64,000 nucleotides of DNA from Cupriavidus basilensis. Its GTDB lineage: Bacteria; Pseudomonadota; Gammaproteobacteria; Burkholderiales; Burkholderiaceae. The stretch lies in assembly GCF_008801925.2 (NCBI RefSeq), contig NZ_CP062804.1, forward strand, positions 558,001 to 622,000, given 5' to 3'. Position 1 is the stretch's first letter. The number at the start of each line of letters is the position of its first letter. This document shows positions 41,041 through 55,875 of this stretch, in pieces. The notes beneath the pieces are model-generated. The model was given only the letters and a program-made list of their open reading frames with translations, was not told where the DNA came from and made no database searches. Both the position numbers and the translations under genes were made by a program.

Positions 41041-41820
41041 CTACGCCTGTCTGCCGGCCAGGGACGCGGCGGGGCCGGCCCGGTAGCTATACGCCAGCGC
41101 CAGCAGGATGAGGATCGGCACGGCAAGGCACCAGTACGACGCCTGCACATAGGCATACGCGCCCGACACGGCGCCGGCCGCGAATGCGGCGATGGCGGGG
41201 ACCATCTTGCGCAGCCGGTTCTTCGCCGCGGCCACCTTGTCGGCCGAGGCGCTGCGCAGCTCGACCAGGTCGATGATGACCTGCGTGCTGTTGCCCGTCA
41301 TGATGGTGGTCGGCACATGGTCGGTCAGCACGATCCGGGATTGCGCGTTCTGGATCGCCATGGCGGCTACCCCCAGCATCCCGGTTGCAATGGCCGATGG
41401 CATGTCGGGCGAGGCCATGGGCGAGGCCAAGCAGCCCGCCAGCATGAAGGCGGCAAGCAACAAGCCTTGCGTGACCAGCAGCGGCGGCAGCGGTGGCCTG
41501 CCGCGCGCCTGCATGGCATCGACGGCGATCTTCGTCGCCGCCACCGATAGCGCGAACACCGGCAGCGCCAGCAGCTTGGCCAGCACGCCACCGGTCGCGT
41601 GCGCGAGCGCCACCCCGAGCATGACAAAGTTGCCGGTGACGTGCGCGGTGAACAGGCCGAACAAGGCGATAAAGCCGACCACATCGACGTAGCCCGCAAC
41701 CAGGCTGAGCATGGCCCCCTTGAACACCTGGCTGGCGATTGCCTGCGGTTGCGTGGGCGGCGAGGACTGTGCCGAGGACTGTGGCGAGGACTGTGGCGTG
41801 GTCGGCATGGCGGGGTTCAT
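41041..41820 (-). CDS. DUF1275 (YoaK-like) membrane protein
   Basis: A 259-residue inner-membrane protein with about six helices. GAMLSLVAGYVDVVGFIALF, FTAHVTGNFVMLG and HVPTTIMTGNSTQ are characteristic of DUF1275. The N-terminal 30 residues are a Ser/Pro/Gln-rich cytoplasmic tail encoded partly by three 12-bp repeats. The start is ATG 41820 or 41808; no ribosome site is clear for either. The gene is divergent from the dioxygenase operon and shares its control region. Transport function is suspected for this family but unproven. Confidence 0.8.
   Translation of the reverse strand: MNPAMPTTPQSSPQSSAQSSPPTQPQAIASQVFKGAMLSLVAGYVDVVGFIALFGLFTAHVTGNFVMLGVALAHATGGVLAKLLALPVFALSVAATKIAVDAMQARGRPPLPPLLVTQGLLLAAFMLAGCLASPMASPDMPSAIATGMLGVAAMAIQNAQSRIVLTDHVPTTIMTGNSTQVIIDLVELRSASADKVAAAKNRLRKMVPAIAAFAAGAVSGAYAYVQASYWCLAVPILILLALAYSYRAGPAASLAGRQA
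41761..41796 (-). repeat. three in-frame 12-bp repeats in the DUF1275 gene
   Basis: On the plus strand CGAGGACTGTG(C/G) occurs three times in tandem, encoding a SPQS-type repeat in the N-terminal tail of the DUF1275 protein. Copy-number changes would keep the frame. Confidence 0.7.
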
Positions 41821-41891
41821 GTTTGTGAAGAGGAGGGCGCTCGCCCGTAGTACAGCATAGGACGTGCGTGCCCGTCCAATTGCAAATTTTC

Positions 41892-41919
41892 TTGATTTTT
41901 CCTGAACCCGGCCCATAAT
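41892..41919 (+). promoter_or_regulatory. sigma-70-like promoter of the dioxygenase operon
   Basis: TTGATT (41892-41897) and CATAAT (41914-41919) are 16 bases apart. The last base of the -10 hexamer is the first base of the LacI-type palindrome, so a bound repressor would block the start site. The same layout occurs at 49604-49631. Confidence 0.55.
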
Positions 41920-41932
41920 GCAAACGTTTGCA
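41919..41932. promoter_or_regulatory. LacI-type operator TGCAAACGTTTGCA
   Basis: A perfect 14-bp palindrome with the central CG and TGnAAnCGnTTnCA layout typical of LacI/GalR-family operators. It lies 18 bases before the dioxygenase start. Identical copies lie at 46001 and 49631, and a LacI-family gene is at 48413. Confidence 0.8.
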
Positions 41933-41949
41933 AAAAACGGAAACCAGAG

Positions 41950-42885
41950 ATGAATATGGAGACGACACTTGCCCCGAGGCTCGGCCGTGGCCTGGCCGTG
42001 GTGGACGACGAACACACGCTGAGCCAACTGGTCAAGGAGGCGATGCGCGATACCACCAACCCGCGCCTGCGGGAGATCGTCGACGCGCTGGTCGATCATC
42101 TGCACGCATTCCTGCGGCAGGTGCGGCCCAGTGACGAGGAGTTCGAGTTCGGGCTGCGCTTTGTCGCGGCGCTGGGCCATGCGACCAACGCAACCAACAA
42201 CGAGGTCGTGCTGGCGGCCGATGTACTCGGCTTGTCAACGCTGGTGACGCTGATGAACAACGGCATCACCGATGGCCGCACGCCGGGCGCCCTGCTGGGC
42301 CCGTTCTATCGCGGCGGCGCGCCGTCTTACGCGTGCGGGGATTGCGTGGTGCAAGGCGAGACGCCGGGGCTGCCATTGTTTGTGAGGGGGCAAGTGCGCA
42401 ACACCGCCGGCGAGCCCCTGGCCGGCGCGCTGGTGGAAGCGTGGCAGGCTTCGCCGGTTGGCCTCTACGACAACCAGGACCCCTCGCAACCGGACAAGAA
42501 CCTGCGCGGCGCCTTTCGGGCCGATGCGCAAGGCCGCTTCCATTTCCGCACGGTGCGCCCGGCGGGCTATCCCGTGCCGACGGGCGGCCCCGTCGGCCAG
42601 CTGCTGGCCGAACAGAACCGCCATCCGTACCGCCCGGCGCACATTCATTTCATCGCCGCGGCACCGGGTTATCGCACGCTTGTCACGCAGGTGTTCGCCG
42701 ACGATTCCGAGCATCTGGAGTCGGACGTGACCTTTGGCGTGCACCGCGAACTGGTGGGCCATTTCCGGCGTGTGGACGAAGGCACCAGCCCTTGGGGCGG
42801 CTTCCCGGCGCCGTTCTACACGCTGGATTTCAATTTTGTGCTGGAGCCGGGCGAGCAGACCTTCCCGACGCCGCCGATCGACTGA
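41950..42885 (+). CDS. intradiol ring-cleavage dioxygenase (hydroxyquinol/catechol 1,2-dioxygenase type)
   Basis: A 311-residue non-haem Fe(III) intradiol dioxygenase. The N-terminal helical linker domain contains ATNNEVVLAADVLGLSTLV. The catalytic domain has all four iron ligands: Tyr173 (GLYDNQD), Tyr207 (PAGYPVP), His231 and His233 (RPAHIHF), with the spacing seen in catechol 1,2-dioxygenases. The N-domain and GPFYRGGAP resemble hydroxyquinol 1,2-dioxygenases. With the maleylacetate reductase at 54796 the favoured reaction is hydroxyquinol to maleylacetate; catechol to muconate is the alternative. First gene of a LacI-controlled operon. No clear ribosome site other than AGAG upstream. Confidence 0.87.
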   Translation: MNMETTLAPRLGRGLAVVDDEHTLSQLVKEAMRDTTNPRLREIVDALVDHLHAFLRQVRPSDEEFEFGLRFVAALGHATNATNNEVVLAADVLGLSTLVTLMNNGITDGRTPGALLGPFYRGGAPSYACGDCVVQGETPGLPLFVRGQVRNTAGEPLAGALVEAWQASPVGLYDNQDPSQPDKNLRGAFRADAQGRFHFRTVRPAGYPVPTGGPVGQLLAEQNRHPYRPAHIHFIAAAPGYRTLVTQVFADDSEHLESDVTFGVHRELVGHFRRVDEGTSPWGGFPAPFYTLDFNFVLEPGEQTFPTPPID

Positions 42886-42909
42886 TTACCGAACACGGAC
42901 GAACTGACG

Positions 42910-43677
42910 ATGACCATTCAACAACAAGGCTCGACCCCGCAACTTGCCGGCAAGGTTGCCGTGATCCTCGGCGGCACCGGCGGCATCGGCATGGCGACGG
43001 CGCGCAAGCTCGCCGCCCTGGGGGCCAGCGTGGTGCTGGTCAGCCGCGACGCGCAGACTGCCGCGCGGGCGGTGGCTGAATTGCCGCCGGGCAACCACCA
43101 TGCGGCCGTGGCACAGATCAGCGACACCGCCTCGCTCGTGCGCCTGGCCGATGACGTGCAGCGCAAGTACGGCCGCATCGACATGCTGGTCAACAGCGCG
43201 GGCTTCACCAAGGCGATAGCGCATGCCGACCTCGACGCGCTGGACGATGCGCTGATCGATGAGATGTTCGCCGTGAACTGGCGCGGCCAGTTCGCCGCGA
43301 TCCGCGCCATGGCGCCGCACCTGAAGGCAACGGGCGAGGGGCTGGTGGTCAACGTGGGGTCCATCGCGGGGCGCACCGGCATGGGCAGCAACGTGGCGTA
43401 CTGCGCGGTGAAGGCAGGGCTCGACATGATGGCCGTATCGCTGGGCCGGGCGCTGGCGCCGGAGATCCGCGTGCTCAACGTATCGCCCGGCGTGGTTGAC
43501 ACCGATTTCGTGCCCGGGCGCGACAGCGCCTTCAACGAGCGCGCGGCCAGGACCACGCCGCTCAAGCGCATCGGCAAGCCGGATGACGTCGCCGATGCCA
43601 TCGTGGCCTGTGCCACGTCGCTGCGCTTTTCCACCGGCACCACCATCGTGGTCGACGGCGGGCGCCAGCTTGGCTGA
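42910..43677 (+). CDS. short-chain dehydrogenase/reductase
   Basis: A 255-residue classical SDR. The cofactor motif GGTGGIG is at 21-27, NSAG follows in the fourth strand, the catalytic serine is in NVGSIAGR, and YCAVK supplies Tyr and Lys. VDGGRQLG is the usual C-terminus. It starts 24 bases after the dioxygenase. The substrate is probably an alcohol or ketone feeding the ring-cleavage route; a preference for NAD or NADP cannot be told. Confidence 0.9.
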   Translation: MTIQQQGSTPQLAGKVAVILGGTGGIGMATARKLAALGASVVLVSRDAQTAARAVAELPPGNHHAAVAQISDTASLVRLADDVQRKYGRIDMLVNSAGFTKAIAHADLDALDDALIDEMFAVNWRGQFAAIRAMAPHLKATGEGLVVNVGSIAGRTGMGSNVAYCAVKAGLDMMAVSLGRALAPEIRVLNVSPGVVDTDFVPGRDSAFNERAARTTPLKRIGKPDDVADAIVACATSLRFSTGTTIVVDGGRQLG

Positions 43678-43727
43678 TCCCGCCTCCCACACATTGTTCC
43701 AGGCAGCAAGACACCAACACGTTCACC

Positions 43728-44612
43728 ATGCATAGCAGAAAGACCATCATTACCTGCGCCGTCACCGGCAATATCGTTACCCCGGCGCAACATCCCGGCC
43801 TGCCGGTGACGCCGGCGCAGATCGCCACGGCGGCGCTGGAGGCGGCCGAGGCGGGCGCGGCCGCAGCCCACATCCATGTGCGCGACCCCGAGACCGGGCG
43901 CCCATCGATGGCGCTCGAGTACTACGCCGAGGTGATCGAGCTGATCCGCAAGCGCAACAAGGCACTCATCATCAACCTGACCACCGGCCCGGGCGGGCGC
44001 TTCGTGCCGGGCGAGGACGAACCCCGCAACGCCGGCCCGGGCACCACGCTGGTCCGCCCGGAAGTGCGCGTCGCGCATATCGCCGCGCTGCGCCCCGATG
44101 TGTGTTCACTGGACCTCAACACCATGAATTCCGGTGCGGACGTGGTCATCAACACGCCCCGGAACGTGCGCAAGATGGCGGCCATCATCCGCGAGGCGGG
44201 CGTCATGCCGGAGCTTGAAATCTTCGACTCCGGCGACCTCCACATGGCGCGCGACTTCATCCAGGAAGGCGTGCTGGACGGCCCCGGCCTGTGGACCTTC
44301 GTGCTCGGCGTGAAATACGGTTTCGCGGCCACGCCGGAGACCTTGTTCTACGCGCGCAATATGCTGCCGCCGGGCGCGCACTGGTCCGCCTTCGGCGTTG
44401 GCCGGGCGGAGTTCCCGATCGTGGCGCAGGCGTGGCTGGCGGGCGGGCATGTCCGGGTTGGCCTGGAGGACAACATCTACTTGGAAAAGGGCGTGCTCGC
44501 GCCGGATAACGCAGCGCTGGTCGCCAAGGCGCGCGACATCATCAAATCGCTGGGCGGCGCGCTGGCGTCGCCACACGAGGCCCGGGCCACGCTCGGCCTG
44601 CGGGCGGCATGA
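43728..44612 (+). CDS. BKACE-family beta-keto acid cleavage enzyme (DUF849)
   Basis: A 294-residue DUF849 protein, the family of 3-keto-5-aminohexanoate cleavage enzyme. TCAVTGN and AAHIHVRDPETG supply the zinc-binding histidines (HIH) and the N-terminal strand; LDLNTMNSG, LEIFDSGD and VGLEDNIYLEKGVLA form the rest of the TIM-barrel site. BKACEs condense a beta-keto acid with acetyl-CoA and release acetoacetate plus a new CoA ester. In this operon 3-oxoadipate would be a fitting substrate, giving succinyl-CoA and acetoacetate; this is inference. Confidence 0.88.
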   Translation: MHSRKTIITCAVTGNIVTPAQHPGLPVTPAQIATAALEAAEAGAAAAHIHVRDPETGRPSMALEYYAEVIELIRKRNKALIINLTTGPGGRFVPGEDEPRNAGPGTTLVRPEVRVAHIAALRPDVCSLDLNTMNSGADVVINTPRNVRKMAAIIREAGVMPELEIFDSGDLHMARDFIQEGVLDGPGLWTFVLGVKYGFAATPETLFYARNMLPPGAHWSAFGVGRAEFPIVAQAWLAGGHVRVGLEDNIYLEKGVLAPDNAALVAKARDIIKSLGGALASPHEARATLGLRAA

Positions 44613-44625
44613 ACGAACAGGCCAG

Positions 44626-44661
44626 CACATACACAAGCACATACACATACACATACACATA
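44626..44661. repeat. hexanucleotide CACATA microsatellite before the next gene
   Basis: Six CACATA-type units (the second is CACAAG) fill most of the 61-base space between the BKACE stop and the next start, followed by CATCACATCATC and ATG. There is no Shine-Dalgarno for the downstream gene, so this AC-rich, unstructured leader takes its place. Copy-number changes could alter expression. Confidence 0.8.
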
Positions 44662-44673
44662 CATCACATCATC

Positions 44674-45651
44674 ATGAACACTATCCGCGTCTCCCAGAAG
44701 GCAGCGAACATCGACGCGCTGCAACTCGAGTTCGTCGGCATTCCCAAGCCCGTGCCCGGCTCCGGCCAATGCGTCATCGAAGTCGCCAGCGCGGGCGTCA
44801 ACCCGAGCGATGTCAAGGCCACGCTGGGTTTGATGCCGCACGCCGTATGGCCGCGTGTCCCCGGCCGCGACTACGCCGGCGTGGTGGTGGACGGCCCCGC
44901 GCACCTGCTGGGCAAGGAAGTCTGGGGCAGCGGCGGCGAGCTTGGCATTCGCCGCGATGGCACGCACAGCCGCTATCTGACGCTCGACGTTGCCGCGGTG
45001 CGCGAGAAGCCCGCCAATGTGACTTTGCAAGAAGCCGGCGCGGTTGGCGTGCCGTTTGTCACCGCCTATGAGGGCCTGCGCCGCGCTGGCCTGCCGAAGG
45101 CCGGCAGCGTGGTGCTGGTGTGCGGCGGCAACGGCAAGGTTGGCCAGGCTACCATCCAGATTGCCACCGCGCTGGGCGCGCGCGTCTTCGCCGTGGAACG
45201 CGAGGCCGGGCCGTTTCGCGGCCACGCCAGCAGCACCGTGCGCATGCTGGACGCCAGCCGCGACAACATCGCCGAAGTGGTGCGCAACGAGACCGACGGG
45301 CACGGCGCGGATATCGTCTACAACACGGTCGGCAGCCCATACTTCGAGCAAGCCAACAAGGCCATGGCGATCGGTGCCGCGCAGATCTTCATCTCGACCA
45401 TCGACCGCGCCGTGCCGTTCGACATCTTCGCCTTCTACCGCGGGCAGCATACGTATGTGGGCATCGACACACTAGCCATGGACAGCATCGCTTGCGCGGC
45501 GGTCTTCGATCAGCTCGGCCCCATGTTCGCGGCCGGGCAGCTCAGGCCCTTCCCGGTGCACGCGGACTACACCTTCGCGCTGGCGCGCGCCGCCGAGGCT
45601 TACCGCGCGGTGCTGCAAGGCGCCCCGGAACGTGTGGTGCTGATGCCATGA
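44674..45651 (+). CDS. quinone-oxidoreductase-like zinc-free MDR protein
   Basis: A 325-residue medium-chain dehydrogenase/reductase. The GroES-like domain contains VIEVASAGVNPSDVKATLG, and the Rossmann part has VLVCGGNGKVGQATIQIA. No catalytic-zinc cysteine/histidine set or structural four-cysteine lobe is seen, so it belongs to the QOR-type branch and would reduce quinones or activated enones with NADPH. Start ATG 44674 is chosen from alignment of the N-terminus; the leader is a CACATA repeat rather than a ribosome site. The end overlaps the next gene by four bases. Confidence 0.85.
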   Translation: MNTIRVSQKAANIDALQLEFVGIPKPVPGSGQCVIEVASAGVNPSDVKATLGLMPHAVWPRVPGRDYAGVVVDGPAHLLGKEVWGSGGELGIRRDGTHSRYLTLDVAAVREKPANVTLQEAGAVGVPFVTAYEGLRRAGLPKAGSVVLVCGGNGKVGQATIQIATALGARVFAVEREAGPFRGHASSTVRMLDASRDNIAEVVRNETDGHGADIVYNTVGSPYFEQANKAMAIGAAQIFISTIDRAVPFDIFAFYRGQHTYVGIDTLAMDSIACAAVFDQLGPMFAAGQLRPFPVHADYTFALARAAEAYRAVLQGAPERVVLMP

Positions 45652-45986
45652 ACACGACCCGGTTCGCCGCCGCGCCGGCCTATTTCCCGCCCGGCCACGA
45701 GGGCATGGGCTGCCTGCGCCTGCAGGGGTTTGAGGCCGGGCCGTCGGCGTCGCTCTGGCTCGGTGTCTCGGTGATCCTGCCGGGCGGCCATACCGGGCTG
45801 GATGCCTCGCCCATGGAAAAGCACTATGTGGTGCTGGAGGGGGAAGTCACCATCAGCAACGGGGAGCAGGTCGCGCGTCTGTCGCAGTACGACTCGGTCT
45901 GCCTGGCGCCGGGTGAAGCCCGCAAGGTGGAGAATCCCGGCAACCGTCCCGCCATGCTGCTGCTGGCCATGCCGTATCCGCCTTGA
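45648..45986 (+). CDS. cupin-domain protein
   Basis: A 112-residue cupin, coupled to the preceding gene by an ATGA overlap. GGHTGLDASPMEKHYVVLEGE and LAPGEARKVENPGNRPA are the two cupin motifs, with His residues (HTG, KHY) and Glu for a metal. It may be a small isomerase, hydrolase or sensor for the pathway. Last gene of the dioxygenase operon. Confidence 0.8.
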   Translation: MNTTRFAAAPAYFPPGHEGMGCLRLQGFEAGPSASLWLGVSVILPGGHTGLDASPMEKHYVVLEGEVTISNGEQVARLSQYDSVCLAPGEARKVENPGNRPAMLLLAMPYPP

Positions 45987-46000
45987 ACTTTTACTTTGCT

Positions 46001-46014
46001 TGCAAACGTTTGCA
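46001..46014. promoter_or_regulatory. LacI-type operator TGCAAACGTTTGCA, second copy
   Basis: Perfect copy of the palindrome at 41919, placed 14 bases after the cupin stop and 62 before the porin start. It probably controls the porin/Bug receptor pair. Confidence 0.8.
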
Positions 46015-46076
46015 AATGCTTCAAATTGACCAGACGGACGCGCCACGCCGCGAATCCGCAATAGGGGAAGAGAGAT

Positions 46077-47264
46077 ATGGGAAATGCCTGGAGGCATAGG
46101 AGGCACCGGTTGCATGGGTGGCAGGAGACAACAAAGGACAGCGCGGCGAGCCCCGCGCCTCGGCACCGGTGGCCGGGCCTGATGGCTGGCGCCGGGGCGC
46201 TCGCCGTGGTGGCGGTGTGCGGGCCCGCTCATGCGCAATCCACGGTAACGGTCTATGGGCGGCTCAACACCAGCATCGAGTATTCGCGCGCCAGCACCGC
46301 CACCGACGGCGCCGTGCTGGGCGGCACCGGACGGCTGACCAATAACCGGTCGGTCTTCGGCTTGCGGGGCGAAGAGGGCCTTGGCGGCTCTCTCAAGGCA
46401 ATCTGGCAGATCGAGAGCAACCTGTCGATCGATAACGGGGCCGGGCAGATTGCGGGACGAAACTCTCGCATTGGTTTGAGCGGTGACTACGGTACGTTTT
46501 TCATGGGGCACTGGACCACGCCCTACACCGAAGCCACCATGGAATACGACCCCTATTACCCGACCACCGCCGGGTATATGGCGCTGATCAGCAACGGCTC
46601 GGCATCGAGCACCAACAACATCCAGGACACGCACTCCTTCGATCGCCGCGAGCAGAACATCGTGCAATACCGCAGCCCGGAATGGAGAGGCTTGCGCGCG
46701 GGGGTGGGCTGGGGCGTGCCCGAGGAAAAGCTCACCACGCCGCGCAACCCGGCGCTCTACTCGTTCGCCACCACCTATGACCGCGGGCCGCTCAACGTGG
46801 CGCTGGCCTACGAGATACACCAGCACTACCAGACGGCGGGCCGCAACGACGATGCCATCAAGGTGGGCGTGTCCTACCAGTTCGCCAGCACCAAGGTCTC
46901 CGCCCTGTATGAGCGGCTGCACTACCGCACCGCCACGGGTGACCTGACGCGCAACGGGTACTACACCTCGGTGGTGCAAAAGCTCGGGCCCGGCAGCATC
47001 AGGCTGGGTTTCGCGCTAGCCAGCAACGGCGCCGGCAATGCCACCGAGACGGTGGGGTTTTTTCGCAGCGGCGCGCAGACCGGCGCCACCCAGTTCACGG
47101 TCGGCTATGACTACCCGCTGTCAAAGCGCACCGCGCTCTTTACCTACTACAGCCGCATCAACAACAGGAAAAACGCTATCTACGACTTCGCCATCAACAG
47201 CCTCGGCGTTTCGGCAGGCGCCGATCCGCAAACCTTTGCGCTAGGCATGCGCCACAACTTCTAA
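46077..47264 (+). CDS. outer-membrane porin (Gram-negative trimeric type)
   Basis: A 395-residue porin. It has a long N-terminal region before the hydrophobic signal core (GLMAGAGALAVVAVCGPAHAQ, cleavage near residue 53), then STVTVYGRLNTSIEY, SVFGLRGEEGLGG and GRNSRIGLSG. The C-terminus ends GMRHNF, the outer-membrane sorting signal. AGGGGAAGAG before ATG 46077 fixes the start and keeps the 30-residue extension ahead of the signal. It probably admits the aromatic or phenolic substrate. Confidence 0.88.
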   Translation: MGNAWRHRRHRLHGWQETTKDSAASPAPRHRWPGLMAGAGALAVVAVCGPAHAQSTVTVYGRLNTSIEYSRASTATDGAVLGGTGRLTNNRSVFGLRGEEGLGGSLKAIWQIESNLSIDNGAGQIAGRNSRIGLSGDYGTFFMGHWTTPYTEATMEYDPYYPTTAGYMALISNGSASSTNNIQDTHSFDRREQNIVQYRSPEWRGLRAGVGWGVPEEKLTTPRNPALYSFATTYDRGPLNVALAYEIHQHYQTAGRNDDAIKVGVSYQFASTKVSALYERLHYRTATGDLTRNGYYTSVVQKLGPGSIRLGFALASNGAGNATETVGFFRSGAQTGATQFTVGYDYPLSKRTALFTYYSRINNRKNAIYDFAINSLGVSAGADPQTFALGMRHNF

Positions 47265-47344
47265 CCCTCGAACCTGACCATCGCGCCGCCCAGCCCCGGC
47301 CGGACCACGATCCGGCCGGACCCGAGGCGGTGGAGGAGACAACC

Positions 47345-48313
47345 GTGATTCGAAACATCCTGCTGTGCGCCACCCTCGCGGTGAGCGCCGGGGGCGCGCT
47401 CGCCCAGCCGCCCCAGTATCCCGCCAAGCCGATCCGCCTGGTGGTGCCATTCTCATCCGGCAGCGCGACCGACATCCTCGCCCGCATCGTTGGCAACAAG
47501 CTGGGCGAATCCGGCCGCTACCAGATGATCGTGGAGAACCGGCCCGGTGCGGGCGGCACGCTCGGCGCGGGGCTGGTCGCCAAGGCCGCGCCGGATGGCT
47601 ACACCCTGATCCTGGTATCGGTCGGGCATGCCATCAATGCCACGCTTTATCCCAAGCTGTCGTACGACACCGTCAAGGACTTCGCGCCGGTGACGCTGGT
47701 GGCGACGGTGCCCAACGTGCTGGTGGTAAACAGCGCCAGCAAGCTGGGTTCGGTCAAGGACGTGGTGGCAGCGGCCAAGGCCAAGCCTGGCACGATGAAC
47801 TTCGATTCCGCCGGGTCCGGCAGCTCGACGCACCTGAGCGGGGAGTTGTTCAAGATGGAAGCCGGCGTGGATATCGCGCACATTCCTTACAAGGGCACGG
47901 GCGAGGCGCTCACCGATGTCATGGCGGGCCGTGTCGACCTGATGTTTGCGCCCACTGTCTCCGCCATGCCGTTCGTGCGCCAGGGCAAGCTCAAGGCGCT
48001 GGCGGTGACCACACCGAAGCGGGCTACCGCCTTGCCGGACATCCCGACGGTGGCGGAGTCGGGCTTGCCGGGTTACGCCTTCGAGTCATGGTTCGGTGTG
48101 CTGGCGCCCGCGGGCACACCCAAGGAGATCGTGGCCGCGCTCAATGGCGAGATCGCCAAGGCGCTGGCCACGCCCGAGGTGCGCGAGCGGCTGTCGGTGC
48201 AAGGCGCCGAAGCGCGCACGTCCACGCCGCAGGAGTTCGAGCGCTATATCAAGGCGGAGATCGCCAAGCTGGCGCCGGTGGTGCGGCAGTCCGGCGTGCA
48301 GGCCGGGCAGTAG
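47345..48313 (+). CDS. Bug/TctC-family periplasmic solute receptor
   Basis: A 322-residue receptor with signal peptide (IRNILLCATLAVSAGGALAQ). It has the family motifs VVPFSSGSATDILAR, IVENRPGAGGTLG, FDSAGSGSSTHL and HIPYKGTGEAL. The start is GTG 47345, because GGAGGAG lies seven bases upstream; an earlier in-frame GTG contains that ribosome site. It is cotranscribed with the porin upstream and followed by the LacI regulator. Confidence 0.9.
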   Translation: MIRNILLCATLAVSAGGALAQPPQYPAKPIRLVVPFSSGSATDILARIVGNKLGESGRYQMIVENRPGAGGTLGAGLVAKAAPDGYTLILVSVGHAINATLYPKLSYDTVKDFAPVTLVATVPNVLVVNSASKLGSVKDVVAAAKAKPGTMNFDSAGSGSSTHLSGELFKMEAGVDIAHIPYKGTGEALTDVMAGRVDLMFAPTVSAMPFVRQGKLKALAVTTPKRATALPDIPTVAESGLPGYAFESWFGVLAPAGTPKEIVAALNGEIAKALATPEVRERLSVQGAEARTSTPQEFERYIKAEIAKLAPVVRQSGVQAGQ

Positions 48314-48412
48314 GAGGCGCGCGGGAAGGTTGGCAGGCAAGCGGGCCCGGCGCGTGCGTCTTCGCTTAAAATGGCATGTTCTCACTCACCACACACCAGC
48401 CCTCCTGCCCGC

Positions 48413-49441
48413 ATGGACCAGCGCAAGCGCATTACCCTGAAGGACCTGGCGGCGAAGGCGGATGTCCATTACTCCACCGTTTCCCGGGTGATGAACGCCG
48501 CCACGCGGCACCTGGTCGCCGATGAGGTGGCCGAGCGCATCCTGCGCATGGCCGACGAGCTCGGTTTCCGGCCCAACCGCATCGCCGCCGGGCTGCGCAC
48601 CAAGCGCTCCGGGCTCATCGGCGTGGTGCTGCCGGATATCTCCAACCCCGTGTTCCCGCCGATCCTGGCCGGGCTCGAGGGCGTGCTGGCCTCGCATGGC
48701 TATGTGCCCATCGTGGTCAATGTAGGCGCCGACAAGACGCGCCAGCGTTTTGTCATCGACCAGATGATGGGCCGCCAGGTCGACGGCCTGATCCTGGCGA
48801 CCGCCGAGCGCGAGGATGCCGTGCTGGACTACTGCGTCAAGCAGCACATCCCCGTGGTGATGGTCAATCGCGGCGAAGATCTCGGCCGGGTGCCCTGCGT
48901 GGTGAGCGACAACCTGCTCGGGATGCGGCTCGCCGTCGATCATCTGGTGGCGCTCGGGCATCGCCGCATTGGCCATATCGCCGGGCCGGACTCGCTGTCC
49001 ACCGGCCACCAGCGCAAGCAGGGTTTTATCGATGCGGTGCGCCGGCACAAGCTGCGCAAGAACGAATGGGCGATCGTGGAAGCGGCAAGCTACGGCCGCG
49101 AAGCGGGGCGCGAAGCGTGCCGCGCGCTGCTGGCGCAGTTTCCCGCGCTGACCGCGATCGCCGCGGGCAACGACCTGGTGGCGCTGGGATGCTATGACTA
49201 CCTGCGCGAGGCCGGGATTGCATGCCCCGCGCGCGTCTCGGTGATCGGCCACAACGATATGCCCTTTGTCGATGCGCTCACGCCCGCGCTCACCACCATC
49301 CGGATTGCCGTTCACGAGATGGGCGTGCAGGCGGCGACGCTGCTGCTGGCGCGCATCGAGAACGCGAAGGCCGAGGCTGCCAGCGTGGTGCTCCGCCCGG
49401 AGCTGATCGTACGCGGCTCGACGGCGCCGCCGGCGCACTAG
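48413..49441 (+). CDS. LacI-family transcriptional regulator of the aromatic pathway
   Basis: A 342-residue LacI/GalR regulator. The HTH and hinge are ITLKDLAAKADVHYSTVSRV and LGFRPNRIAAGLRTKRSG. The ligand domain shows the usual IGVVLPDISNPVF, GADIGHIAGP-type and GNDLVALGCYDYLREAGI segments. Its operator is likely TGCAAACGTTTGCA, found three times nearby and not elsewhere that I noticed. LacI control of ring cleavage is less common than LysR or IclR control. The start at 48413 fits the family length; an in-frame ATG at 48371 is an alternative. No ribosome site is obvious for either. Confidence 0.88.
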   Translation: MDQRKRITLKDLAAKADVHYSTVSRVMNAATRHLVADEVAERILRMADELGFRPNRIAAGLRTKRSGLIGVVLPDISNPVFPPILAGLEGVLASHGYVPIVVNVGADKTRQRFVIDQMMGRQVDGLILATAEREDAVLDYCVKQHIPVVMVNRGEDLGRVPCVVSDNLLGMRLAVDHLVALGHRRIGHIAGPDSLSTGHQRKQGFIDAVRRHKLRKNEWAIVEAASYGREAGREACRALLAQFPALTAIAAGNDLVALGCYDYLREAGIACPARVSVIGHNDMPFVDALTPALTTIRIAVHEMGVQAATLLLARIENAKAEAASVVLRPELIVRGSTAPPAH

Positions 49442-49603
49442 GCGGCTCGCGCAGGCGAGCAACCCGCATCTTCCGGGAATCGCAACGGTGGTCAACTACA
49501 CATCCTTGTAGTGGGCACGGGTCATCGGCTTCAAAGCCATGCGCAGCAAGGGCTGCAGGTCATTTTTGAGTTGTGCGGATCCGGCGCGCCGATGTTTTCG
49601 GCC

Positions 49604-49631
49604 TTGATCTTTCGGTGTTTTAATCCATAAT
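49604..49631 (+). promoter_or_regulatory. sigma-70-like promoter of the two-component operon
   Basis: TTGATC (49604-49609) and CATAAT (49626-49631) are 16 bases apart and directly abut the LacI-type palindrome, exactly as at 41892-41919. Confidence 0.55.
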
Positions 49632-49644
49632 GCAAACGTTTGCA
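49631..49644. promoter_or_regulatory. LacI-type operator TGCAAACGTTTGCA, third copy
   Basis: Identical to the palindromes at 41919 and 46001. It lies about 277 bases before the response regulator start, overlapping the promoter's -10 end. Confidence 0.8.
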
Positions 49645-49860
49645 GAATCGACGCGAGGCACCCGGCATCAACCGGAATTGTGAGGCTGGCGAGGTGTCCT
49701 TTGCATGGGCTCACGCCCCGGCTACACCCAGGGACGGCCGTGTACACCCCTGGACAATGGCCGGCCTCATGCGGATAGGGAAGAATCGCGCTGCCCGCCA
49801 GGCAGGTTGGCGCATCTCGCGTTGCCGTTTTTTCCCGGAGTTTGAGAATAGAGGATTCAA

Positions 49861-49899
49861 ATGATCGTCGCATGCCTTTTTCCCAGGTGCCGGGCATAG
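49861..49899 (+). CDS. possible 12-residue leader peptide
   Basis: ATG 49861 with GAGGA five bases upstream opens a 13-codon frame (MIVACLFPRCRA) ending TAG 49899, nine bases before the response-regulator start. Two Cys and two Arg codons occur near its end. Translation of this short ORF could set up translation of the next gene. Only the ribosome site and position support it. Confidence 0.3.
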   Translation: MIVACLFPRCRA

Positions 49900-49907
49900 G
49901 ACGCGGC

Positions 49908-50579
49908 ATGACGATATCCGGCAGCTATCCCAGTCCCGGCGGCGCCTGGCTCGTCGACGACGGCGTGGTGCTGGTCGTTGACGATGACGCGGCCTTGCGC
50001 GATGGCATTGCCAGCCTGTTCCGCTCGATGGACATCCAGGTCAGGACCTTTGCCTCGGCGGCCGAGTTCCTGTGCTTTCCGATTCCCGATGTGCCGTGCT
50101 GCCTGGTGCTGGATGTACGCCTCAGGGGGGCCAGCGGGCTGGAGCTGCAGGCCATGCTGGCCGAGGTGGGCTGCCCGGTGCCGGTGGTGTTTATCTCTGG
50201 CCACGCGGACGTTGCCATGTCGGTCATGGCGATGCGGGCCGGCGCAACGCACTTCCTGACCAAGCCGTTCCGCGACCAGGACCTGCTCGATGCGGTGACG
50301 GAAGCCATTGGCAGGGACGTGCAGCGGCGCGCTTGCGAGCGGCGCGGGCGCGAACTGAAGGCTGCGTTCGAGACGCTGACATCGCGCGAGCGCGAAGTCA
50401 TGGCACTGGCGGCGGCGGGCCTGATGAACAAGCAGATTGCCGACGATGTGGGCCTGAGCACGGTCACGGTCAAGATCCACCGCGCGCAGGCCATGAAGAA
50501 GATGGGCGCGCGGACCTTTGCCGACCTGGTGGTGATGGCGCACGTGCTTGGCCTGACCAACGCGGCGGCGCAGGCGTGA
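49908..50579 (+). CDS. FixJ/NarL-type response regulator
   Basis: A 223-residue response regulator. The receiver domain has the acidic cluster VVDDDAAL at 24-31, the phospho-acceptor Asp69 (CLVLDVRLRG), the Ser switch (FISGHAD) and conserved Lys (FLTKPF). The LuxR-type HTH is LTSREREVMALAAAGLMNKQ to VTVKIHRAQAMKKMGA. I use ATG 49908 (AGGA eight bases upstream); ATG 49872 and TTG 49842 are in frame but overlap the leader peptide. Its kinase follows with an overlapping GTG. Confidence 0.88.
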   Translation: MTISGSYPSPGGAWLVDDGVVLVVDDDAALRDGIASLFRSMDIQVRTFASAAEFLCFPIPDVPCCLVLDVRLRGASGLELQAMLAEVGCPVPVVFISGHADVAMSVMAMRAGATHFLTKPFRDQDLLDAVTEAIGRDVQRRACERRGRELKAAFETLTSREREVMALAAAGLMNKQIADDVGLSTVTVKIHRAQAMKKMGARTFADLVVMAHVLGLTNAAAQA

Positions 50580-50584
50580 TCACG

Positions 50585-51775
50585 ATGCGCAGACCCTATC
50601 ATCCGCGTCATTCGCTGCGCAAAGGCAGCTTGGGCAACGCCCGTGCGAGGCGGCGCGGCCTGCATGAAAGCGAGGCCTCCCTGGCCGAGGGCCAGCGCAT
50701 CAGCAAGACCGGCAGCTGGCAATGGTGGCCGGCGCGGCGCGAGATGCGCTGGTCGGCGGAGATGTACCGGCTCTTCGGGCTCGACCCCGCGCCTGGCGCA
50801 CCCGGCATGCACACCTTGGTAGCGATGATCCATGCCGGCGAGCGTGCCCGCGTGCTCGCCGGCATGGCTCGCGCCTGCAAGGAGGGCACGCCGTTCCAGC
50901 AGGAGTTCCGCATTCTGTGCCACAACGGCGAAGAAAAGCACCTCATCTGCGTGGGACAGCCGCGCCGGGGCAGCGAGCACAGCCTGGGCTTTGTCGGCAC
51001 CGTGGTCGATATCACGGAGCGCCGCCGCGCCGAGGAAGTGCTGCGCGTGGCGCAGGCGGAACTGGCGCATGTGTCGCGCGTCGCCGTGCTGGGCGAACTG
51101 ACGGCATCCATCGCGCACGAAGTCAGCCAGCCGCTGGCGGGCATCATCACGAATGGGGAAGCCTGCCTGCGCTGGCTGGACCGGGCGCAACCCAACCTGG
51201 AGGAGGCGCGCAGCGCGGTGCAGCGCATGATCAGTGAAGGCCGGCGCGCCAGCGCCGTCATCGGCCGCACGCGCGCGCTGGCGGCCAAGGGCGTACCGCA
51301 GCGCGCACCCGTGGACCTGGGCGCCGCCCTCGCTGAATCCCTGGCGCTGCTGATGCCCGAAATGGGCAACCAGGGCGTGGCGGTGTCCGCCCATGTGGTG
51401 CCGGGCTTGCCGGCGGTGCTGGGCGATCGCATCCAGCTGCAGCAGGTGCTGATCAACCTCCTGCTCAATGCCATGCAGGCCTGCGCGGCGGTGCCAGCCG
51501 GGCTGCGTTCGATCCTGGTGCGGTGCGAACGGCTCTGCGCCGCGCCGCCGCGGGTGCTCTGCACGGTGCAGGACACGGGCCCGGGCATCGCGCCGGCGAA
51601 CATCCCGAACCTGTTCGACGCCTTCTTTACCACCCGGCCGGAGGGTCTGGGCATGGGCTTGTCGATCTGCCGCTCGGTGGTGGAGTCGCACGGCGGGCGC
51701 ATCTGGGTCGACGAGCAGCCGGGTCCGGGCGCCACATTCCGTTTTACGCTGCCCGTGCGGGAAACGCGCTTATGA
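50585..51775 (+). CDS. soluble PAS-domain sensor histidine kinase
   Basis: A 396-residue kinase without membrane segments. A PAS_3-type domain spans about 30-145 (SWQWWPARREMRWSAEMYRL, EFRILCHNGEEKH, GTVVDITERRRAEE). The H-box is SIAHEVSQPLAGI, the N-box LINLLLNAMQA, and the ATP-lid motifs DTGPGI and GLGMGLSIC. GTG 50576, overlapping the response-regulator stop, is an alternative start. The FixL-like layout suggests sensing of a cytoplasmic signal such as a redox state or pathway intermediate. Confidence 0.88.
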   Translation: MRRPYHPRHSLRKGSLGNARARRRGLHESEASLAEGQRISKTGSWQWWPARREMRWSAEMYRLFGLDPAPGAPGMHTLVAMIHAGERARVLAGMARACKEGTPFQQEFRILCHNGEEKHLICVGQPRRGSEHSLGFVGTVVDITERRRAEEVLRVAQAELAHVSRVAVLGELTASIAHEVSQPLAGIITNGEACLRWLDRAQPNLEEARSAVQRMISEGRRASAVIGRTRALAAKGVPQRAPVDLGAALAESLALLMPEMGNQGVAVSAHVVPGLPAVLGDRIQLQQVLINLLLNAMQACAAVPAGLRSILVRCERLCAAPPRVLCTVQDTGPGIAPANIPNLFDAFFTTRPEGLGMGLSICRSVVESHGGRIWVDEQPGPGATFRFTLPVRETRL

Positions 51776-51824
51776 TTGGCGTCTGACAGATGCCATCCCG
51801 CGGCAGGAGCGGCGGTTTTCACAT

Positions 51825-52598
51825 ATGCGTTCTCCCGATATTTCGCTTGGCGCCGCGATTCCCGCGGATGCGCCTCCCGCCCTGGCCGTGCTGCTTGGCG
51901 ACATCGACCGTGCCCAGGATATCGAGGGGCTGGCGGGCGCCGTCTGCACCGCCGCCAGGCTGCTCGGGTTCAATCATTTCTATTTGCGCTACAAGGGGCT
52001 GCCGGGTTCCGGCGCGGCCCATGCCGGTTCGCTGACCAGCCTGCCGGGCGGCGCGAGCCTGCCGCTGCAAGCCCACGGCGAAGCCCTGGCGGCGCTGGTG
52101 GTCAAGGCGCGCGATTCCCTGGGGCCGGTGGTGTGCAGCAGCGCGGAACCCCTGGTGCGGACCCCTGATGACGCGACGCTGGCACGGGCCGAGCTGGACC
52201 GCCGGCTGACCGCGGCCATTGCCTTTTCCGCCAGCATGCCAAGCCACGAGATGGGCACGCTGGCGCTGCTGTCGCTCGATGGCAACGCGGGCGACGACGA
52301 GGCCGCCGTCTGCCGCGCGCGCCTGTTCGGCCCGGCCATCACGCAGGCCGTGCTCGATCGTTTCTGCGCGATCGCGCGCGGGCGTGCCGAGCCGGCGGTG
52401 TCGCTGACGGCGCGGGAGCTGGAGGTGCTGCGTTGGGTGGCGCTGGGCAAGACTTCCTGGGAGGCCGGGCAGATCCTCGGCATCTCCGAGCATGGCATTT
52501 CCCACCACATGCGCAACGTGATGCGCAAGCTGGATGTGGGAAACCGCTTGCAGGCGGTGCGCACGGCAATTGCGCTGGGGCTGCTGCCAGGCGAATAG
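51825..52598 (+). CDS. LuxR-type transcriptional regulator with autoinducer-binding-like domain
   Basis: A 257-residue regulator. The N-terminal 175 residues resemble the autoinducer-binding fold (GLAGAVCTAARLLGFNHFYLRY, EMGTLALLSLDG). The C-terminal HTH is SLTARELEVLRWVALGKTSW to ISHHMRNVMRKLDVGNRLQA. No LuxI-type synthase is near, so it is a LuxR solo or responds to another ligand. It starts 49 bases after the kinase; the nearest AGGAG is unusually far (about 15 bases) from ATG 51825. Confidence 0.82.
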   Translation: MRSPDISLGAAIPADAPPALAVLLGDIDRAQDIEGLAGAVCTAARLLGFNHFYLRYKGLPGSGAAHAGSLTSLPGGASLPLQAHGEALAALVVKARDSLGPVVCSSAEPLVRTPDDATLARAELDRRLTAAIAFSASMPSHEMGTLALLSLDGNAGDDEAAVCRARLFGPAITQAVLDRFCAIARGRAEPAVSLTARELEVLRWVALGKTSWEAGQILGISEHGISHHMRNVMRKLDVGNRLQAVRTAIALGLLPGE

Positions 52599-54795: not shown

Positions 54796-55875
54796 ATGAA
54801 ATCCTTTGTCTACCAAAGTCATCCGCAGCGCGTGGTGTTTGGCGCCGGCGCCCTGGACCGGCTCGGCGCCGAGATCGACGCGCTGGGCGCGCGCCGCGTC
54901 CTGGTGCTGTCCACGCCCGGCCAGCGCGGCCAGGCCGAGCATGTGGCGGACCTGCTGGGCGAGCGTGCCGCGGGCGTCTTCGACGGTGCCGTGATGCACG
55001 TGCCGATCGAATCCGCGCGCGCCGCCCGCGAGCAGGCCGCGCGCCTGGGCGCGGATGGCGCGGTGGCGATCGGCGGCGGCTCCACCATCGGGCTGGGCAA
55101 GGCCATCGCGCTGGAGTCGGGCCTGCCGATCGTGGCGGTGCCAACCACCTACTCTGGATCCGAGATGACGCCGATCTTCGGCCTGACCGAAGGCGGCATC
55201 AAGCGCACCGGCCGCGACGCGCGCGTGCTGCCGCGCACCGTGGTGTACGACCCCGAGCTCACACTTGGTCTGCCGCTGATGCTGAGCGTGACCAGCGGCA
55301 TCAACGCCATTGCGCACGCCGCCGAAGGGCTCTACGCGAGCGATGCCAATCCCGTCGCCAGCCTCATGGCGCGCGAAGGCATCGCCGCGCTGGGCCGTGC
55401 GCTTCCCGCCATCCGCCAGGCGCACGCCAGCGGCAGCGCACCGGACATGCTGGCCGCACGCAGCGATGCGCTGTATGGCGCGTGGCTGTGCGGCAGCGTG
55501 CTGGCCAACGTGGGCATGTCGCTGCATCACAAGCTGTGCCATACGCTGGGCGGCAGCTTCAACCTGCCGCACGCCGAGGTGCACACCATCGTGCTGCCGC
55601 ATGCGCTGGCCTATAACGCGAGCGCCGCGCCGGAGGCGATCGCCACGGTAGCATCGGCGCTTGGCGCGGCGAGCGCGCCACAAGCGCTGTTCGATCTGGC
55701 CCGCGACAATGGCGCACCGGTTGCGCTGCGCGATATCGGCATGCGGGACCGCGACCTGGATCGTGCTTGCGAGCTTGCCTTGCTGAACCAGTACCCGAAT
55801 CCGCGCCCGCTTGAGAGGGCGGCGATCCGGCAGTTGCTGCAGGATGCGTTTGAAGGGGCGCGGCCTGCGGCATGA
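54796..55875 (+). CDS. maleylacetate reductase (iron-type alcohol dehydrogenase family)
   Basis: A 359-residue group III alcohol dehydrogenase of the maleylacetate reductase type. It has FGAGALDRLG at the N-terminus, the NAD motif GGGSTIGLGKAIA, VPTTYSGSEMTPIFG, and the C-terminal HHKLCHTLGG and LPHAEVHTIVLPHAL histidine segments. It reduces maleylacetate to 3-oxoadipate with NAD(P)H. It completes the hydroxyquinol route begun by the dioxygenase at 41950, although it lies 12 kb away in a separate transcription unit. Confidence 0.9.
   Translation: MKSFVYQSHPQRVVFGAGALDRLGAEIDALGARRVLVLSTPGQRGQAEHVADLLGERAAGVFDGAVMHVPIESARAAREQAARLGADGAVAIGGGSTIGLGKAIALESGLPIVAVPTTYSGSEMTPIFGLTEGGIKRTGRDARVLPRTVVYDPELTLGLPLMLSVTSGINAIAHAAEGLYASDANPVASLMAREGIAALGRALPAIRQAHASGSAPDMLAARSDALYGAWLCGSVLANVGMSLHHKLCHTLGGSFNLPHAEVHTIVLPHALAYNASAAPEAIATVASALGAASAPQALFDLARDNGAPVALRDIGMRDRDLDRACELALLNQYPNPRPLERAAIRQLLQDAFEGARPAA

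Follow-up and report, generated by a model that had tools for sequence, protein, structure and literature searches.

LacI-family proteins are textbook sugar switches, and the hydroxyquinol (1,2,4-trihydroxybenzene) pathway, which combines hydroxyquinol 1,2-dioxygenase with maleylacetate reductase, belongs to aromatic degradation. According to the main text of a survey of 344 genomes, 176 of the 182 LacI groups with assigned pathways (96%) control carbohydrates, and the remaining groups mainly control nucleoside use, purine or pyrimidine synthesis and neotrehalosadiamine synthesis; the word "aromatic" is absent from that main text (Ravcheev et al., 2014; PMC4052901). The main text of a study of betaproteobacterial aromatic regulons deals with regulators (CatR, BenM, BoxR, AphS, ClcR and others) that act locally on operons for aromatic catabolism, in the bacterial class to which the organism treated here also belongs, and contains neither "LacI" nor "hydroxyquinol" (Suvorova & Gelfand, 2019; PMC6449761). 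Here we describe a 64,000-nucleotide (nt) stretch of Cupriavidus basilensis (assembly GCF_008801925.2, contig NZ_CP062804.1, positions 558,001 to 622,000; hereafter the window) in which a LacI-family gene (48413..49441, + strand) lies among intradiol ring-cleavage genes and three copies of the palindromic 14-mer TGCAAACGTTTGCA. We conclude that this gene very probably encodes a repressor acting locally on a peripheral intradiol pathway; its regulon would also take in an unlinked second locus and a two-component branch specific to the lineage. The observation stands, and comparative genomics supports the interpretation. A preliminary description of this DNA had called LacI control outside sugar use unusual, in agreement with the 176 of 182 carbohydrate groups in the main text of PMC4052901. 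Among the titles and abstract openings listed by our literature search, which covered openly available papers, none connects LacI with a hydroxyquinol-type dioxygenase or with a beta-keto acid cleavage enzyme (BKACE); four of the papers found contain both the word LacI (once each) and the word hydroxyquinol.

The exact 14-mer occurs in the window at 41919..41932 (operator 1, 17 nt upstream of the dioxygenase ATG), 46001..46014 (operator 2, between the cupin and porin genes, 14 nt past the cupin stop codon and 62 nt ahead of the porin ATG) and 49631..49644 (operator 3, upstream of the response regulator operon). All three copies were found exactly where the preliminary description had placed them, before the dioxygenase operon, the porin/receptor pair and the two-component operon. 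As in LacI-family operators, the 14-mer is an even palindrome with a central CG near the start codons of the genes concerned. The whole genome (8,942,610 bases) contains four exact copies, no copy with one mismatch and no exact copy of the reversed control. At the base composition of the window 0.007 exact copies are expected in 8.94 Mb, and three copies within 7.7 kb have a probability of about 7e-9 at the genome's own rate. A chance origin of the sites is therefore rejected (four observed vs 0.007 expected), and the possibility that the 14-mer is common and unrelated to these genes, raised at the outset, does not hold, three of the four copies being here. Places with two mismatches number seven genome-wide, and the total at up to two mismatches (11) is similar to that of the reversed control (9); within the window, six matches with up to three mismatches compare with a shuffle mean of 2.58 (largest 5), so that only the exact window matches are informative.

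Two of the operators adjoin predicted promoters. A sigma-70-like scan of 41700-50000 listed two sites, promoter 1 (TTGATT-N16-CATAAT, 41892..41919, + strand) and promoter 3 (TTGATC-N16-CATAAT, 49604..49631, + strand), each abutting an operator; as a count, two is not significant, base shuffles giving 0.9 on average (sd 1.0). The final base of each CATAAT hexamer is also the first base of operator 1 or 3. The TTGATY-N16-CATAAT promoters at two sites with the same spacing are thus as first reported, whereas the statement that the operator follows the promoter needs correction, since it overlaps the -10 hexamer by one base.

Among 60 genomes of the genus the exact 14-mer is present in 40, and the reversed control in none of the 60. 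The same 40 genomes carry an ortholog of the LacI gene (at least 69% identity), the match in genome G226 being partial (record L246 of that contig shows LacI in two pieces; G denotes a genome, L a fetched locus and G000 the source genome). The site is found in 0 of the 20 others (Fisher p 2.4e-16, uncorrected for descent). A LacI match at E 1e-60 is absent from 17 of these 20, and the remaining three (G208, G145, G026) have only a 53-54% paralog. Sites were assigned within 1,800 bp to the window genes and the second-locus AraC gene only. On this basis, 61 of the 63 exact copies in the 60 genomes stand directly upstream of a dioxygenase, porin/receptor, response-regulator or AraC gene. By target, 39 belong to the dioxygenase, 12 to the porin/receptor (five of them assigned via the receptor, the porin start not being extrapolable there), two to the response regulator operon, nine to the second locus and one to a different AraC gene (G202). 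One of the 39 dioxygenase sites (G205) precedes a 53% dioxygenase paralog near a 51% LacI paralog. Counted by gene, all 38 loci whose dioxygenase ortholog reaches at least 65% identity have the exact operator upstream. Outside these 38 are G202, with none of these enzyme genes, and G236, with only a 56% dioxygenase and no operator behind the cupin gene, where receptor pieces lie.

Placement is conserved as well. The operator-to-start distance is 1-32 nt for 38 dioxygenase genes (extrapolated starts) and -6 for the 39th, a paralog, and a site with at most one mismatch stands behind the cupin gene, at the position of operator 2, in 31 of 39 loci (12 exact, 19 with one mismatch). In 29 of the 38 loci, vs 0.013% of base shuffles, the motif TTGA[CT]N-N15-18-[CGT]ATAAT, composed after the sites had been seen, occurs in the roughly 150 bp that precede the operator. 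Mean pairwise identity of the flanks is 0.29-0.36 at dioxygenase sites, 0.36-0.45 at porin sites and 0.30-0.36 at AraC sites, the operator columns themselves being identical by selection. Co-occurrence in 40 of 40 genomes vs 0 of 20, together with this placement, argues for the regulon that the preliminary description had predicted from the link between the LacI gene and the palindromes.

Seven genomes carry double operators (13-bp offset, one-base overlap) upstream of the dioxygenase gene, at L046:4670-4696, L142:3211-3237, L144:2983-3009, L177:7250-7276, L180:2836-2862, L185:233-259 and L192:8102-8128. Operator 2 is missing from eight loci, and these include all seven; the doublet is found in 0 of the other 32 loci. 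One double site may stand in for two single ones, or the doublet genomes may form one clade. The local LacI repressors described in the main text of PMC4052901 likewise have even central-CG palindromes, sites near start codons, a regulator beside its targets, 13-bp overlapping double sites in some members and, in some groups, porins under their control. Those repressors serve sugar or nucleoside use, whereas the locus described here has an intradiol ring-cleavage module, a GHND motif in the regulator (see below) and an unlinked second locus.

The fourth exact copy, at G000:C2:2398207, is 1.8 Mb away, with an AraC-family gene 135 bp downstream and TTGACG-N16-CATAAT upstream (read by eye). Around it the AraC regulator gene is near genes for an FmdA-like protein, a TctC receptor, a porin and an alpha/beta hydrolase. 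These five and an HbpS-like gene were matched in all eight other exact-operator loci fetched, a cytochrome c gene in seven of the eight, and an Ldh2-like gene with the neighboring hydrolase in five. Homologs of the second-locus AraC gene are present in 11 of the 60 genomes, nine of which have the exact operator within the locus, directly upstream of AraC in seven. Since the operator is shared although the locus has no linkage to the LacI gene, control in trans is well supported.

The two-component branch is narrower. Downstream of operator 3 are genes for a LuxR-type response regulator (49872..50579, + strand; start codon inferred, open reading frame (ORF) listed from 49842), a PAS histidine kinase (50576..51775, + strand; start approximate) and, after this two-component operon, a further LuxR-type regulator (51771..52598, + strand; start approximate). 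A close response regulator ortholog (94-95%) was found downstream of LacI in G201, with an exact operator, and in G203, with the one-mismatch site TGCAATCGTTTGCA; the next best match among the 60 genomes is 63%. The operator-bearing two-component operon was thus found only in the source genome and two close relatives, and this branch is recent and changeable. G202 is a case of a regulator outliving its pathway: neither the enzyme operon nor the two-component genes were detected in this genome, yet LacI and an exact operator are kept (L126:10022-13189), now upstream of an AraC gene and a LuxR gene.

On the + strand of the window, a five-gene enzyme operon is followed by the porin, the TctC receptor, the LacI regulator, the response regulator, the kinase and the LuxR-type regulator. 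The enzyme operon comprises an intradiol dioxygenase of diverged hydroxyquinol 1,2-dioxygenase type (41950..42885; PF04444 and PF00775), a short-chain dehydrogenase (SDR, 42910..43677), a BKACE (43728..44612; PF05853, E 1e-100), a quinone oxidoreductase/enoyl reductase-like MDR protein (44674..45651) and a small cupin (45648..45986), for which a PADLOC scan gave no result. Next come the outer-membrane porin (46077..47264; PF13609) and the TctC-type periplasmic receptor (47345..48313; PF03401). The 99-nt gap between the receptor and LacI genes contains no exact operator. Pfam confirmed the gene identities first proposed for this cluster, including the LacI-family gene at 48413. Further downstream, beside TctC and LysR genes, is a maleylacetate reductase-like Fe-ADH gene (54796..55875, + strand; 3jzd 500 bits, 3hl0 387, 3w5s 380). 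It has no exact operator, and it may be a lower-pathway partner outside the operator-controlled operon, a candidate member of the regulon only.

The best solved relatives of the dioxygenase are 3n9t (210 bits) and 1tmx (191 bits), and by inspection of hydroxyquinol dioxygenase alignments its Tyr/Tyr/His/His motifs, which we take to be the iron ligands, are kept. Two other dioxygenases in the genome score 294 and 307 bits against 1tmx, neither of them near a 14-mer. We regard the dioxygenase at 41950 as a diverged relative because these two genes match 1tmx better, and on the same ground the module is unlikely to be the canonical hydroxyquinol pathway. It shares with that pathway the dioxygenase family and a maleylacetate reductase-like gene about 12 kb downstream, and differs in having BKACE, SDR, MDR and cupin genes under predicted LacI control, with more canonical dioxygenases elsewhere. 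Judged by dioxygenase homology, the pathway would be aromatic, and the dioxygenase probably acts on a polyhydroxy-aromatic carrying substituents. The BKACE scores 182 bits against NF053568 (cut-off 350) and is below the cut-off of all four matched NCBIfam models, so that a 3-oxoadipate-specific enzyme is rejected. A plausible route would be ring cleavage, reduction by the SDR or MDR protein and splitting of a beta-keto acid by BKACE with acetyl-CoA, to which the maleylacetate reductase-like gene may contribute. Elsewhere in the genome, contig C7 (G000:C7:49797-78761) carries two more intradiol dioxygenase relatives (33-37%) and two maleylacetate reductase relatives (59-62%), which are possibly, at a guess, chlorocatechol (tfd-like) modules.

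The regulator itself (342 aa) has the helix-turn-helix and periplasmic-binding-protein-like effector domain of the LacI family (PF00356 and PF13377, above cut-off). It does not fit a carbohydrate-utilisation LacI regulog, its predicted targets being dioxygenase, SDR, BKACE, MDR, cupin, porin and TctC genes. At residues 279-282 it has G-H-N-D where PurR has G-Y-D-N, placing Asn281 opposite the PurR Asp, a residue that contacts the ligand both in PurR and in LacI. An alignment of 15 LacI relatives shows GHND without variation. The exchange of Asp for Asn would fit a non-sugar ligand, weakly, because four of eight paralogs in the genome also lack the Asp (four keep it, four have Gly).

Related LacI proteins extend beyond the genus. 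Named genomes were searched with the alignment of 15 LacI relatives and the best 80 of at least 547 relatives were kept; one of the two search patterns contains GHNDM, and the frequency of this motif in the result is therefore not independent. The best 80 include members from Cupriavidus, Paraburkholderia, Caballeronia, Pandoraea, Massilia, Janthinobacterium, Herbaspirillum, Bradyrhizobium, Azorhizobium and Sphingomonas. A dioxygenase relative lies in the fetched flank of 49 of these 80, and TGCAANCGNTTGCA is found within 250 bp upstream of the dioxygenase in 42 of the 49 (19/19 Cupriavidus, 23/30 others), including four of seven alphaproteobacterial loci (L248, L256, L260 and L263; not L247, L250 or L265). 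The pattern occurs at 105 places in 1.32 Mb, its reversed control at none. In 31 loci chosen for their dioxygenase, MDR/BKACE genes are neighbors in 30, SDR in 28 and cupin in 26; the transporters vary (ribose-like ABC, NMT1-type ABC, Na:dicarboxylate symporter or porin). On balance we lean towards a broader reading, in which a GHND/TGCAANCGNTTGCA LacI subfamily would have given up the sensing of sugars for that of an aromatic or ring-cleaved ligand. In betaproteobacteria and some alphaproteobacteria it would now be the repressor usually found beside an aromatic pathway of intradiol/BKACE type that has yet to be described, with the Cupriavidus network adding its unlinked AraC and lineage-specific two-component/LuxR branches.

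Several relatives differ in detail. Janthinobacterium LacI relatives (L222, L224, L226, L227, L229-L236, L238, L239) have one TGCAAGCG-type site per locus and no dioxygenase in the fetched flank, and at L226:7838 this site is just upstream of the LacI gene. A one-residue recognition-helix code (Tyr for TGCAAACG, small residues for TGCAATCG) fails, as L032 has Ser with TGCAAACG. In Pandoraea (L213:11877-12422) a gamma-carbonic-anhydrase/PaaY-like gene lies between the BKACE and MDR genes, and several other relatives show a comparably sized gap. In a Hyphomicrobiales metagenome-assembled genome (L256:9194-17018), three paralogous TRZ/ATZ-like amidohydrolase genes and an ABC system stand directly before the operator and dioxygenase.

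Regulator and sites could be real in a pathway that is not an ordinary aromatic one: the dioxygenase might attack a different ring or a compound derived from sugar, with the LacI protein responding to a sugar-like ligand. Ribose-like ABC ATPase and permease genes in eight of the 31 loci and a Peripla_BP_4 receptor in seven are in keeping with this, the amidohydrolases of L256 hint at a nitrogen-containing ring, and LacI proteins mostly sense sugars, as the main text of PMC4052901 has it. Cupriavidus metallidurans CH34 did not grow on hydroxyquinol (PMC8879955), a result that also counsels caution about the substrate. The dioxygenase, however, has both domains and the Tyr/Tyr/His/His motifs, and Asn281 within the invariant GHND points, if weakly, away from a sugar. 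We consider this alternative unlikely.

Binding of the operator, repression rather than activation, the class of inducer and the substrate are proposed here from these comparisons. The LacI-family repressor encoded at 48413, probably dimeric, would bind TGCAAACGTTTGCA, and because operators 1 and 3 overlap the -10 hexamer, bound repressor would exclude RNA polymerase. A C-terminal helix has the tetramerisation role in LacI; here the match of residues 5-340 (of 342) to residues 2-332 of 1lbg, a chain of 360 residues, leaves no tail for a helix of the Escherichia coli LacI type, and a DNA loop closed by a LacI tetramer from operator 1 to operator 2 is rejected. Operator 2 would control the porin, the receptor and probably the LacI gene itself; the repressor would act there on a promoter that the scan does not recognise, or else stop transcripts arriving from operator 1. 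The repressor would be released by an inducer, for which the growth substrate or an intermediate formed early, still aromatic or already ring-cleaved, is the most likely candidate. Uptake through the porin and TctC receptor would then increase in step with intradiol ring cleavage and the cleavage of beta-keto acids. Acting in trans on the unlinked AraC locus, the repressor would bring a second island under the same switch, and in the source lineage it would additionally control the two-component/LuxR group.

That the protein instead activates transcription, or needs a co-repressor like PurR, seems to us quite improbable. At the fourth site and in several relatives the operator is about 9-13 nt downstream of the -10 hexamer rather than on it, and the protein resembles PurR overall; yet positions on or downstream of the -10 hexamer have the geometry of a repressor, activators usually sitting upstream of -35. 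Least credible of all is that the palindromes are sites for another LacI paralog, PurR-like or otherwise, with a consensus sharing GCAAACGTTTGC and are only incidentally near the gene at 48413: E. coli PurR is the best-scoring solved structure (147 bits), its operator core is GCAAACGTTTGC, and other LacI paralogs are present in the genome, but only four exact places and none with one mismatch exist genome-wide (hence no PurR-type purine regulon), the ligand-contact Asp of PurR is Asn here, site presence tracks the 48413 gene over 60 genomes, altered half-sites (TGCAATCG, TGCAAGCG) in relatives again adjoin a related LacI gene, and G202 retains LacI and an adjacent operator without the enzyme operon.

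Several observations count against the repressor we propose for 48413 and its regulon. The scan of 41700-50000 revealed no TTGATY-N16-CATAAT-type promoter at operator 2 (46001) and no + strand terminator between the cupin and porin genes, and operator 2 is absent in eight of 39 loci. Eight other LacI-family paralogs (at most 33% identity) are encoded in the genome, the better-scoring dioxygenases described above are found elsewhere in the genome, and the 60 genomes are related, hence not independent events. At the second locus, two AraC homologs (62% identity) have no operator nearby, and in G224 and G236 AraC is 1.56 kb from the operator, with an oppositely directed ORF between them (L136:6781-7938 and L139:8178-9110); the operator may serve another gene there. 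Among the relatives, seven of the 49 dioxygenase-bearing loci lack the TGCAANCGNTTGCA pattern, and 31 of the best 80 have no dioxygenase match in the fetched flank.

The proposed regulon is wider than the window suggested, with an unlinked second target and related LacI genes accompanied by the same enzyme module beyond the genus. The natural half-site variation beside these related regulators is a ready data set for LacI DNA specificity. If the interpretation is true, the aromatic-cleavage LacI subfamily would show a fold re-aimed at a new ligand class, would give biosensors a further repressor/operator pair that responds to aromatics, and would indicate a degradation route, so far uncharacterised, around the beta-keto acid cleavage enzyme.

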